The position numbers were made by a program, and so were the translations under genes. The notes under the pieces are model-generated. The model had not been told where the DNA came from. It did no database searches and worked only from the letters and a program-made list of their open reading frames with translations. Below, in pieces: positions 27,835 through 31,917 of a DNA stretch of 64,000 bases; position 1 is the first letter of the stretch, and every line of letters begins with the position of its first letter. The stretch comes from Terriglobia bacterium (GTDB lineage: Bacteria > Acidobacteriota > UBA6911), in the NCBI GenBank assembly GCA_020072565.1, contig JAIQGI010000015.1, positions 1 through 64,000 on the forward strand. The letters are read 5' to 3'.

Positions 27835-28905
27835 TTAGTCGGGCTTCTTCCATGTTACCAGGCAGTTTTTGCCACGCCTCTTGGCTTCATAAAGTGCCTT
27901 GTCCGCGCGTCCCAGGAGATCTTCGGATTTTTCTCCCGGAATAGACTGGGCCAATCCGCAGCTGACCGTAAGTCGCTCGTGGCGCATCTCGCCGCCGTCG
28001 AGGAATTCGAATTGAGAATCCGCGACATATGCGAGGAGTTGCAGGAACCGCATTTCTGCCTGAGGCAGGGTAGCATTGGTGAAGAGCACTACAAACTCAT
28101 CGCCGCCGTATCGTCCTAAGAAGTCGCCCAAACGGATGTGGGAGTTGATCCACCCCGCAACGCACACCAGTGCCTGATCCCCAACCTGGTGTCCATGGAC
28201 GTCGTTGATTTTCTTGAAATCGTCCAGATCTATGACGGCCAGGATGAATGGCGTTATTGACTCCTGGAGGGCACGCTTGATCGCCCGATCGATGCTTCGG
28301 CGGTTCCCGACCTGGGTCAATGGATCCATCAGTACTTCTTGTTTCGTCTGCCTGAGCTTCTCCTGGAGCAGGTCGAAGCGCCTCGACATCTTTGCGTAGA
28401 TGGCTTCGTCCTGCTTCTTTTTCTCCTCCACCATGCGCGTAAGCTCGTCGACTTCACTGGCAATCTGTTTTTTCAGTTCGCGGAGATCTTCAATGTCGTT
28501 CAAGTGTTTGAAGCGCGTCGAGGAATCCAACAGGCGTTGATTAAAGGTATCGGCCTCGCCGGTGAGGGTGCCGACGGCTTCTCTCAAAACATCTACGACT
28601 TCCCGAATTTCGGTCTCTCGTTCCTGCAGATACCCTTGGGCGCGCTTGAAATATTTGTGGCAGAGAGTCAGGCACTTTTCGACGGTGCTCTCGAGGGTGC
28701 GGCTGTCGTTGACGCGCTCGAGCTGGTCTCGGAAACGATCCAGCTGGGATCGGAACTCAGAAGTTTTCAGGCCTTCACTTTCGATGGCGATCTCGGAAAC
28801 CAGGGCCAGGAGGCGTCCCGACAGCCGCCCGAACCGGGCAACGAGACTCTCTCGATCGTCTTTTCGCCGCTTGAAGAGGCCCAGCTCAATAAACTGGTTT
28901 GGCAT
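27835..28905 (-). CDS. diguanylate cyclase with N-terminal helical region
   Basis: A 356-aa protein that would make cyclic di-GMP from two GTP. A C-terminal GGDEF domain has intact GGDEF at 267-271 (RYGGDEFVVLF) and an I-site RxxD at 258-261 (RLGD) exactly five residues before it, so product feedback inhibition is expected. The N-terminal 190 residues are almost wholly helical and charged (EVDELTRMVEEKKKQDEAI), a likely coiled-coil dimerisation region. No signal peptide or transmembrane helix is present, so it is cytoplasmic with no recognised sensor. The start at 28905 (MPNQFIEL) is weakly supported; a GTG at 28953 is the alternative. Confidence 0.9.
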   Translation of the reverse strand: MPNQFIELGLFKRRKDDRESLVARFGRLSGRLLALVSEIAIESEGLKTSEFRSQLDRFRDQLERVNDSRTLESTVEKCLTLCHKYFKRAQGYLQERETEIREVVDVLREAVGTLTGEADTFNQRLLDSSTRFKHLNDIEDLRELKKQIASEVDELTRMVEEKKKQDEAIYAKMSRRFDLLQEKLRQTKQEVLMDPLTQVGNRRSIDRAIKRALQESITPFILAVIDLDDFKKINDVHGHQVGDQALVCVAGWINSHIRLGDFLGRYGGDEFVVLFTNATLPQAEMRFLQLLAYVADSQFEFLDGGEMRHERLTVSCGLAQSIPGEKSEDLLGRADKALYEAKRRGKNCLVTWKKPD

Positions 28906-29198
28906 AGATTCAGCTCTCTCGCTCCCGGGATCGGCAACCTTGTCGGGGTCCACGCCGGCGCATGGACAATTGGATCTGAGGATGGGGATTCTTTTCCGTG
29001 AATCCCGTTCCCCTGGGACCTGTTCCAGGCTGCGACTCGCGTTTCTGCAATCAGCCTTTCCATGAGCGAAAGCACGGCCGTCAGCGAGTGAACGGGTCCC
29101 TCCTCACTACTTATCGGCCCGGTTCAAAAATTCTGAGGTGATATTGCGCTTAAACAAGTAGGGCCGGGCGGGTGGTGGGCAGGAACAGCGTACTTCGG

Positions 29199-30560
29199 CT
29201 ACGCTTTGCGCCAGGATTGCACTCTCTCGAAAATGGCAGCGGCGATCTTCGTGGCTGCTTCCTCTGAGAGAGCCTCGGCAACGACGCGGATGACAGGTTC
29301 TGTGTTCGAGCCCCGGACGATGAACCAGCCCTCGGGCAAGGTTACCTTGATTCCGTCGCGTACATCGGTCGGATATGCCGCATATTCCCGTTTAACCCGA
29401 GCGAGCACTTCTCCGATTCGGTGCGAAGGGAAGGAGAGCCGCTGCTTGACCATACAGCAGGGCGGCAGTCCCTGCACCAGTTGTGAGACGGATTGCCCGG
29501 ATTCCGCCAGCAGGTGAAGAATGAGAGCTATTCCCGCCAGGCTGTCGCGGGCAAAATTGATCGGTGGATAAATGACGCCGCCGTTGCCTTCGCCGCCGAT
29601 GACGGCTTTGTACCGCTGCATTGCCTTCGCCACATTGGCTTCTCCGACCGGAGTGCGGTAGACCTTGCACTCGAACCGCGCCGCGACGGCCTCCAGCGCA
29701 TGTGTGGTTGCCAGATTGGCCACAACGGGGCCTGGGGTTCGGCCGAGCACGAACTGCGCCGCCAACACCAGGGTGCGCTCTTCGCCGATGGGCTGACCCA
29801 GTTCTGAGACGACGGCGAGGCGGTCTGCATCCATGTCCTGGGCGAATCCCACGTCGGCCTGGTGCTTTTGAACCGCCTGGCACAGGGCGCCGATGTTCTC
29901 GGGGAGCGGTTCGGCCGGTCTGGGGAAACGGCCGTCGGGCGTGACGTGGATGCCGATCACCTCGGTGCCCAATTCCTTAAGGAGGCGAGGGGTGAGGATA
30001 GAGCCGGCGCCGTTGCACGCATCGATTACGACCCGCCGCCTGCGCGCATCGCCCCGCAGCGGACCGAGCACCTGAACGATTTTGCGTACATGCTCCTCCG
30101 CAGCTTGGGGCATCAACTCAACCGGGCGCATCAGTGAGCCCGGCACCTTGGTATAGTCGCCTTGATGATAAATATCCAACAACTCGCGGGCGTGGCCTCC
30201 GTCCAGGAAAAGACCGTCGGGTCCGATGAATTTGAGTGCGTTCCACTCGGGAGGGTTGTGACTTGCGGTAATTGCAATCCCCCCCTGCGCCGACAGACGG
30301 CGTACGGTCAGCTGTACGGTCGGAGTGGGGCAGACCCCGAGGTCAATGATGCGGCAGCCTGTTGAAAGGAGGCCGGAGACTACCGCCTGTCGCACCATTT
30401 CACCGGACGTGCGCGTATCGCGCCCTACCACGACCCGGCCGTGGCCCACATACGTCCCGAAGGCCTGCGCGAAGCGGGCCAGCAGCGCGGGTGTCAATGA
30501 TTCGCCCACTACGCCGCGGACTCCGGAGATACTGATCTTGAGGGTCGGGATGGCCTGCAT
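29199..30560 (-). CDS. phosphohexomutase (phosphoglucosamine/phosphomannomutase family), intact paralogue
   Basis: A 453-aa alpha-D-phosphohexomutase. All four active-site regions are present: phosphoserine S100 in ITASHNP, metal loop D242-M-D244-A-D246-R247, sugar-binding loop GGEGNGG, and phosphate loop RGSNTEPVIR. The N-terminal SISGVRGVVGESLTP is usual for phosphoglucosamine mutase-like proteins, so GlmM activity is plausible but phosphomannomutase or phosphoglucomutase cannot be excluded. The ATG at 30560 starts 7 bases after the stop of the paralogue upstream; a GTG at 30587 would overlap it. The two form a tandem pair on the minus strand. Confidence 0.9.
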   Translation of the reverse strand: MQAIPTLKISISGVRGVVGESLTPALLARFAQAFGTYVGHGRVVVGRDTRTSGEMVRQAVVSGLLSTGCRIIDLGVCPTPTVQLTVRRLSAQGGIAITASHNPPEWNALKFIGPDGLFLDGGHARELLDIYHQGDYTKVPGSLMRPVELMPQAAEEHVRKIVQVLGPLRGDARRRRVVIDACNGAGSILTPRLLKELGTEVIGIHVTPDGRFPRPAEPLPENIGALCQAVQKHQADVGFAQDMDADRLAVVSELGQPIGEERTLVLAAQFVLGRTPGPVVANLATTHALEAVAARFECKVYRTPVGEANVAKAMQRYKAVIGGEGNGGVIYPPINFARDSLAGIALILHLLAESGQSVSQLVQGLPPCCMVKQRLSFPSHRIGEVLARVKREYAAYPTDVRDGIKVTLPEGWFIVRGSNTEPVIRVVAEALSEEAATKIAAAIFERVQSWRKA

Positions 30561-30567
30561 ATGTCTG

Positions 30568-31917
30568 TTACCCGCGTAAACGCTCACGCGCCCAATCCGT
30601 CAGTTCGCGCGCCCGCGATTCGTGCTCAGCCTCTGCAATGATCCGGATAATCGACTCCGTATTCGAAACGCGCACATGGACCCAACCGTCCGGCCAATCG
30701 ATGCGCACGCCGTCGGACGAATCCACCTCGGTGCCACACTCGTCCTGAACGCGGTCGCGAAACGACTGCAATGCCGAGTAAATCAGATTGGGTTCGACCG
30801 GCATGATCGATTTGATCATCGAAAGCCGGGGCAGTTCATCGACGAGCACGGACAGGGGTTTTTGTGTCGCTGCGAGGTGCTCCAGGATCAGGCCGATGGC
30901 GGCGGAGCTGTCCGGCACAGCCTGGACCTCGGGAACGATGACGCTGCCGTTGCCCTCGCCGCCGAGCACGGCATGATGCTCCAAAACGGCTTCGGACACA
31001 TAGGCTTGGCCGACCGCGGTCCGGACCACCGGCGTCCGATAGCAGGAGGCGATCCGGTCGACCATCGCGCTCGTCGATATGTTGGTTACGACGGCACCCG
31101 GCCGCCGGCTGAGCCTGACGGCTGCTGCCAGGGCGAAGGTAAATTCTTCCGGGAGTATGCGCGCACGCTCGTCAACGAGACCCAGTCGTTCGCCGTCGGC
31201 GTCGAGCACCAGTCCAAAGTCTGCACCACCCGCCTTAACCAACGCCCGGACCTGGGCCATCGTGTCCTGTCTCGGCTCGGGATCGTGCGGAAACGGAGCG
31301 CTGATGTCGTCATTGATGGTCAGGCCCTGGGCACCCAGCTCCGTGATCCAGCGCGGAGTCAATGCAGAACAGGCGCCGTTGCAGCAGTCGATGGCGACAC
31401 GATATGCGCGCCTGCGGATCGAGGCAACGTCGAAAGTGCTTGCCAGAATTGCGAGGTGGTGATCGACCGCATCCGCACTTTCGATCATGGGACGGATCCG
31501 ATCCCATGTCACCTTCTCAAATTCGTGCTCGTGGTATATGTCGAGCAGTTCGGTCGCCTGCGTTGCATTGAGGTAGAGGCCGTCGGCTCTGGCAAACTTC
31601 AAGGCGTTCCAGGGCGTGGCGTTGTGACCCGCGGTAATGGCAATGCCTCCCTGGGCATTGAGCCGGCGGACCGCCAACTGAAGGCTGGGAGTAGGGCATA
31701 CCCCCAGGTCGATTACCTCACATCCCGAAGCCAGCAGCCCGGCCGTGACTGCGGATGCCACCATGGGGCCCGACGGCCGGGTGTCGCGGCAGATGAGAAT
31801 GCGCCCCGAGTTCAGATATGTGGCGAACGCCTGAGCGAAACTCACTGCCAGCTCGGGAGTGAAGGTCTCACCCACAATGCCACGCACTCCGCTGATGCCG
31901 ATCTTTAATGGTTTCAT
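30568..31917 (-). CDS. phosphohexomutase paralogue lacking the catalytic serine
   Basis: A 449-aa protein clearly homologous end-to-end with the gene at 29199-30560 (GISGVRGIVGETFTPELA). The site that should hold the phosphoserine reads ITAGHNA, with Gly97 (codon GGT) in place of Ser. The metal loop is altered to D239-A-D241-G-E243-R244 (third Asp replaced by Glu and an extra Gly). The sugar loop (GGEGNGS) and phosphate loop (RVSNTESIIR) are kept. So it likely binds a phosphosugar but cannot do the usual phosphoryl-transfer chemistry. The start at 31917 begins the conserved MKPLKIGISG; the frame extends 72 codons further without homology. Confidence 0.88.
   Translation of the reverse strand: MKPLKIGISGVRGIVGETFTPELAVSFAQAFATYLNSGRILICRDTRPSGPMVASAVTAGLLASGCEVIDLGVCPTPSLQLAVRRLNAQGGIAITAGHNATPWNALKFARADGLYLNATQATELLDIYHEHEFEKVTWDRIRPMIESADAVDHHLAILASTFDVASIRRRAYRVAIDCCNGACSALTPRWITELGAQGLTINDDISAPFPHDPEPRQDTMAQVRALVKAGGADFGLVLDADGERLGLVDERARILPEEFTFALAAAVRLSRRPGAVVTNISTSAMVDRIASCYRTPVVRTAVGQAYVSEAVLEHHAVLGGEGNGSVIVPEVQAVPDSSAAIGLILEHLAATQKPLSVLVDELPRLSMIKSIMPVEPNLIYSALQSFRDRVQDECGTEVDSSDGVRIDWPDGWVHVRVSNTESIIRIIAEAEHESRARELTDWARERLRG

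Follow-up and report, generated by a model that had tools for sequence, protein, structure and literature searches.

We found that a phosphohexomutase paralogue without its catalytic phosphoserine (gene A) is kept together with an intact paralogue (gene B) in several phyla, and the best reading of the comparative evidence is that A would be a mostly non-catalytic subunit of an amino-sugar-phosphate mutase converting HexNAc-1-P to HexNAc-6-P. In more general terms, we consider it fairly probable that A and B form a hetero-oligomeric phosphosugar mutase, with B as its catalytic subunit and A as a dedicated subunit that binds ligand but is crippled in catalysis. Both genes lie in a 64,000-nucleotide stretch of DNA from a Terriglobia bacterium (the window). 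A first-pass annotation had described the change of Ser to Gly97 (codon GGT), the metal loop DADGER and an intact neighbour with ITASHNP and DMDADR; all of these were as described, and both open reading frames lay on the minus strand where it had placed them. The features are as follows.

29199 to 30560, minus strand: gene B, intact phosphohexomutase with TASHN, DMDADR, GEGNG and RGSNTE (sequence, Pfam, alignment)
30561 to 30567, minus strand: A-B intergenic gap of 7 nt, CAGACAT (sequence)
30568 to 31917, minus strand: gene A, phosphohexomutase paralogue with Ser-to-Gly (Pfam PGM_PMM_I-IV; AF2 pLDDT 95.9)
30643 to 30672, minus strand: phosphate-binding loop RVSNTESIIR of A, kept, residues 416-425 (R416, T420 and R425 in 74/74 A copies)
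30946 to 30960, minus strand: sugar loop GEGNG of A, kept, residues 320-324 (G320 and E321 in 74/74 A copies)
31186 to 31203, minus strand: metal loop DADGER of A, Glu for third Asp (sequence and alignment)
31627 to 31629, minus strand: Gly97 codon GGT at the phosphoserine site of A (sequence and alignment)

A encodes 449 aa and B 453 aa; both are four-domain phosphohexomutases, with 44% identity between them. B begins 7 nt downstream of the TAA stop of A, and co-transcription of the two genes is therefore likely in the window. All four domains, PGM_PMM_I to IV, were present in A, which has the phosphohexomutase superfamily fold. Catalytic members of the superfamily carry the Ser in T/S-X-S-H-N-P and a DxDxDR loop with three Asp. 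A has instead TAGHNA (within ITAGHNA, Gly97 being encoded at 31629-31627) and DADGER (GAC GCC GAC GGC GAA CGA, 31203-31186), in which the Glu replacing the third Asp could still allow metal binding. The other loops of catalytic members, GExNG/GExSG and RxSxTE, were found in A as GEGNG and RVSNTE. The structure predicted by AlphaFold was complete (pLDDT 95.9, pTM 0.93), and a structure search gave T. kodakarensis PGM as the closest solved fold, with a TM of 0.94. A also cleared the curated cut-off of the NCBIfam equivalog model TIGR03990 Arch_GlmM (450.4 bits against 439), as did B with 492 bits, but the missing Ser makes the activity implied by this name unlikely for A. The model labels a serine-less protein "phosphoglucosamine mutase" and, because the pair spans several phyla, probably does so in many genomes. 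Archaeal-type GlmM/PMM-PGM proteins (TIGR03990; T. kodakarensis PGM, 9du5; P. horikoshii, 1wqa) resemble A in the four-domain fold and in both loops, at 35% identity. They have the phosphoserine and three Asp, whereas A, which has an intact paralogue as its neighbour, is missing the Ser and one of the Asp residues.

We then used A as a query against 396 Acidobacteriota genomes and obtained strong matches in 35, nearly always as two adjacent genes, with the upstream gene altered and the downstream gene intact repeatedly. Within the class of an Acidobacteriales genome, 15 of 121 genomes matched, 14 of them with two matches. The pair was also found in Armatimonadota, Lentisphaerota, Myxococcota and Aminicenantes, and a lineage-specific oddity was rejected, as the A family spans several phyla. 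A plasmid search returned ordinary Bacteroidota-type GlmM only (32-36%). The first-pass annotation had raised the question of whether TAGHN orthologues always sit beside an intact copy. Among linked pairs A preceded B in 73/73; in 53 of these the two genes lay no more than 40 nt apart, and many overlapped. B was present wherever A was found in the genomes that we followed up. In G296 and Victivallis vadensis A and B lie apart, yet each genome still holds both genes. G380 was dismissed as a case of A without B, since B sits at a contig end, and Victivallis as a case of B without A, since A was found on another contig. The fear of a sequencing error was likewise removed by five A orthologues from other families (61-62% identity), all of which have TAGHN and DADGER. 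The wide spread of the pair was a point beyond the first-pass annotation, as were the position of the Asp-to-Glu change within the catalytic metal loop, A copies in which the metal loop rather than Ser is lost, a Terriglobia A subgroup with Ser and all Asp, and an amino-sugar operon context in relatives.

Once copies had been made non-redundant at 90%, 74 A copies could be compared with 136 B copies and singletons. Of the A copies, 64/74 had lost Ser97, a metal Asp or both, in differing ways (Ser and Asp both in 35, Ser only in 14, Asp only in 15, neither in 10), and Arg335 was lost in 73/74. Among B copies and singletons 134/136 were intact, the two exceptions being B genes of second pairs in two Armatimonadota genomes with further copies elsewhere. 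R12, D45, R47, H98, R244, G320, E321, D336, R416, T420 and R425 were kept in every one of the 74 A copies, in agreement with the earlier statement that the sugar and phosphate loops survive the loss of the phosphoserine. Repeated and differently placed, the A lesions offer a natural series with which to ask what active-site parts a partner subunit could do without. Gly was rejected as the defining change of A, as Ser is kept in 25/74 copies, 15 of which are without a metal Asp. In the Armatimonadota genomes G456 and G433, A-B pairs (L164, L165, L225, L226) were seen whose gene at the B position has degenerated as well, with the motifs TSGHQ, and TGGSQ with AAGGDR; a NahK-like kinase precedes both.

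The ten A copies with Ser and all three Asp belong to one Terriglobia subgroup, so A is not necessarily dead in every lineage, and in this subgroup A is possibly still active or re-specialised. Its members (L070, L077, L190-L200) have VGRQ (VGR for VGE), GEGTG, and Tyr335 for Arg335. Such copies would also suit a different reading, in which A is a new catalyst, such as a phosphatase, an isomerase or a bisphosphate synthase, that works on the remaining metal site while B supplies or uses its product. Several A types have a near-normal metal loop (DADGDR, DADGER) together with His98, and the superfamily has changed its reaction before, as in the glucose-1,6-bisphosphate synthase Slr1334 (PMC9426568). 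However, it is the Ser or the first, second or third Asp that is lost, depending on the lineage, which is unexpected under selection for one reaction, and we regard a new activity of A as decidedly unlikely.

Phylogenetic analysis placed A in a single clade both in a 112-row tree (SH-aLRT 99) and in a 77-row tree from which long or odd rows were left out (support 100/99), A monophyly being weak in a 92-row tree (83/28). In the 77-row tree, A plus B were set apart from singletons (99/99). The A and B subtrees mirrored each other, and A and B distances correlated (Mantel r 0.75, p 0.001, 61 pairs). Since A forms a clade, A and B stand apart from singletons and their distances correlate, these results fit one old duplication followed by joint inheritance. 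The presence of the pair is patchy, which suggests loss or transfer of the pair as a unit. Collectively, linkage, mirrored subtrees and co-inheritance give good comparative backing to the proposal, made in the first-pass annotation, that A is a partner of the adjacent intact copy; a regulatory or sugar-sensing role, also suggested there, is a possibility. The dN/dS comparison proposed there also favoured a maintained gene: for the estimable pairs, with one nearly identical B pair left out and several comparisons giving no estimate, values were 0.02-0.08 among A copies and 0.03-0.06 among B copies, indicating purifying selection. The missing nucleophile and metal ligand could in principle mean that A is a duplicate in decay or that its sequence is in error. 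These low values, the full-length open reading frames and loops in all lineages, the same Gly in independent assemblies, and lesions in most A copies against 2/136 B copies and singletons refute that reading, to which we attach practically no credence.

We propose that an archaeal-type, GlmM-like mutase that formed homo-oligomers was duplicated once, long ago, and gave rise to A and B. B would retain the phosphoserine, the metal loop and the remaining machinery for catalysis. A, with its fold and its phosphate and sugar loops kept, would close over a phosphosugar, most plausibly a hexose-1,6-bisphosphate, without exchanging phosphate, and would act on B through assembly and ligand occupancy. 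B might depend on A to be stable or fully active, or A might hold the bisphosphate that primes B, or gate B by substrate level. A Ser-to-Ala mutant of AfAGM1 (S69A) is inactive, yet was crystallised closed on Glc-1,6-bisphosphate (PMC6096347), and PDB 2fkm, among our structure matches, is PMM/PGM S108D with Glc-1,6-bisphosphate. An A that holds a bisphosphate without turnover is thus an economical guess, because its lesion is of the same kind as in the AfAGM1 mutant and its binding loops are kept. The Ser-less PMM/PGM variant S108A retained some activity, as cited in PMC6096347, which would count against a fully dead A.

The same observations would suit an A that is a free-standing binder of a sugar phosphate or hexose bisphosphate, either a sensor or a reservoir of the activating bisphosphate, and that forms no stable complex with B. 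All A copies keep the binding loops, phosphotransfer groups were lost in several ways, Ser-less relatives bind Glc-1,6-bisphosphate (PMC6096347; 2fkm), and in two genomes A and B are unlinked but both kept. We think this quite unlikely: the near-universal adjacency of A and B in strict order suggests matched amounts and assembly, A has no effector domain, and close relatives are oligomeric. T. kodakarensis PGM, for one, is a homotetramer, a dimer of dimers (PMC11940775). Nevertheless, genes can be coupled when their products form no complex, which counts against the hetero-oligomer that we favour.

As a rule, phosphohexomutases are regarded as enzymes that need no partner, and in a limited search of the open-access literature we found no report of a conserved dead-plus-live phosphohexomutase pair. 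In the trypanosome prozymes (AdoMetDC-prozyme; DHS and its dead paralogue) a dead paralogue is conserved beside an active one, as in A-B, and the hetero-oligomer activates the enzyme (PMC5201418, PMC3663545). Folds and reactions are unrelated, however, and complex and activation are proven there, whereas for A-B they are predicted. Our pair shows one of the marks of the prozyme type, a conserved paralogue with a broken site that co-occurs with an active one; the other, a physical hetero-oligomer with activation, would be expected of A-B. From linkage and these precedents we infer that A contacts B and affects it; the lack of activity in A, the substrate and the role of the bisphosphate we also infer. 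Phosphoglucomutase 5 (aciculin) is likewise an inactive phosphohexomutase paralogue with substrate binding intact (PMC7761743), but it is a structural muscle protein of animals, its inactivity is blamed on active-site loop changes, and it shares no operon with an active relative. Slr1334 (cd05800) is a paralogue within the same superfamily that feeds an activating bisphosphate to a mutase (PMC9426568). It belongs to a different subfamily and is active, whereas A lacks the nucleophile. The GlmM-CdaA complex (PDB 7olh, 7ojs, 9g69) resembles the proposed A-B in that a phosphohexomutase binds a partner protein, although the partner there is a diadenylate cyclase and not a paralogous mutase.

The operons in which relatives carry the pair suggest a role in breaking down amino sugars. 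At 27 of 55 long pair loci and at 0 of 48 singleton loci, a gene for a GHMP kinase, a NahK-like kinase, NagA or NagB lay nearby (within 2.5 kb, same strand); this comparison is biased towards the pair loci, from which the reference proteins came. NahK-like kinase matches at pair loci had E values of 1e-29 to 1e-33, and gene orders included A-B-NagB-NagA (L148), NagA-A-B-NagB (L143) and A-B-[NagB-GHMP fusion] (L139). Fusions of a NagB-type deaminase to a GHMP sugar kinase were seen directly behind A-B at L139:7854-9707, L053:7341-9194 and L138:11490-13340. Two unrelated kinase families, both including sugar 1-kinases, occupy the same place at pair loci. With NagA and NagB in the operons, these kinases imply a route from HexNAc through HexNAc-1-P, HexNAc-6-P and HexN-6-P to Fru-6-P, and the substrate in most lineages is probably an amino-sugar phosphate. 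A NahK-like or GHMP 1-kinase would make HexNAc-1-P, A-B would convert it to HexNAc-6-P, and NagA and NagB would follow. According to PMC9599254, no prokaryotic enzyme for GlcNAc-1-P to GlcNAc-6-P has been described; A-B operons with NahK-like kinases, NagA and NagB are a concrete candidate for this missing step. Taken to its full extent, the proposal would make A-B the first hetero-oligomeric phosphohexomutase and at once the missing prokaryotic enzyme between HexNAc-1-P and NagA-NagB, with A holding an otherwise leaking sugar-1,6-bisphosphate that keeps B phosphorylated. In this combined form we consider it unlikely.

The linkage is absent at the window's own locus, and no kinase, NagA or NagB was found beside the pair in the window's own subgroup. 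Its genome has NagA elsewhere than beside the pair, a weak NagB match only, and no match to a NahK-like kinase in a search run without a positive control. For these reasons the substrate of the window's own copy, the least certain step, may differ from an amino sugar. The genome also has a separate glmM apart from the A-B pair. At least in this organism, the pair might act not on amino sugars but on a hexose phosphate that derives from galactose or glucose, or on some other sugar, which would be compatible with a two-subunit mutase. Near the pair, on the plus strand at 21.3-27.6 kb, are galT, a galactokinase-like GHMP kinase, a sodium/solute symporter and a GH35-type hydrolase. However, this group lies on the opposite strand from A-B with a GGDEF protein gene in between, the top NCBIfam match of the GH35-type protein is exo-beta-glucosaminidase (far below the cut-off), and relatives carry NagA, NagB and NahK-like genes in the operon. 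A hexose phosphate substrate thus appears doubtful, if with a real chance of being right.

The GGDEF gene (27835-28953, minus) follows B at a distance of 245 nt, on the same strand; it was rejected as a component of the system, none having been seen beside other pairs. One B copy of G023 (L014/L149) has MASDH for TASHN and GSGGNG for GGEGNG, and may reflect an assembly error or decay. Finally, a 428-aa open frame (30622-31908, plus) runs antisense across the entire A gene; antisense frames recur opposite A- and B-type genes elsewhere, and we therefore ascribe it to sequence composition and do not count it as a gene.
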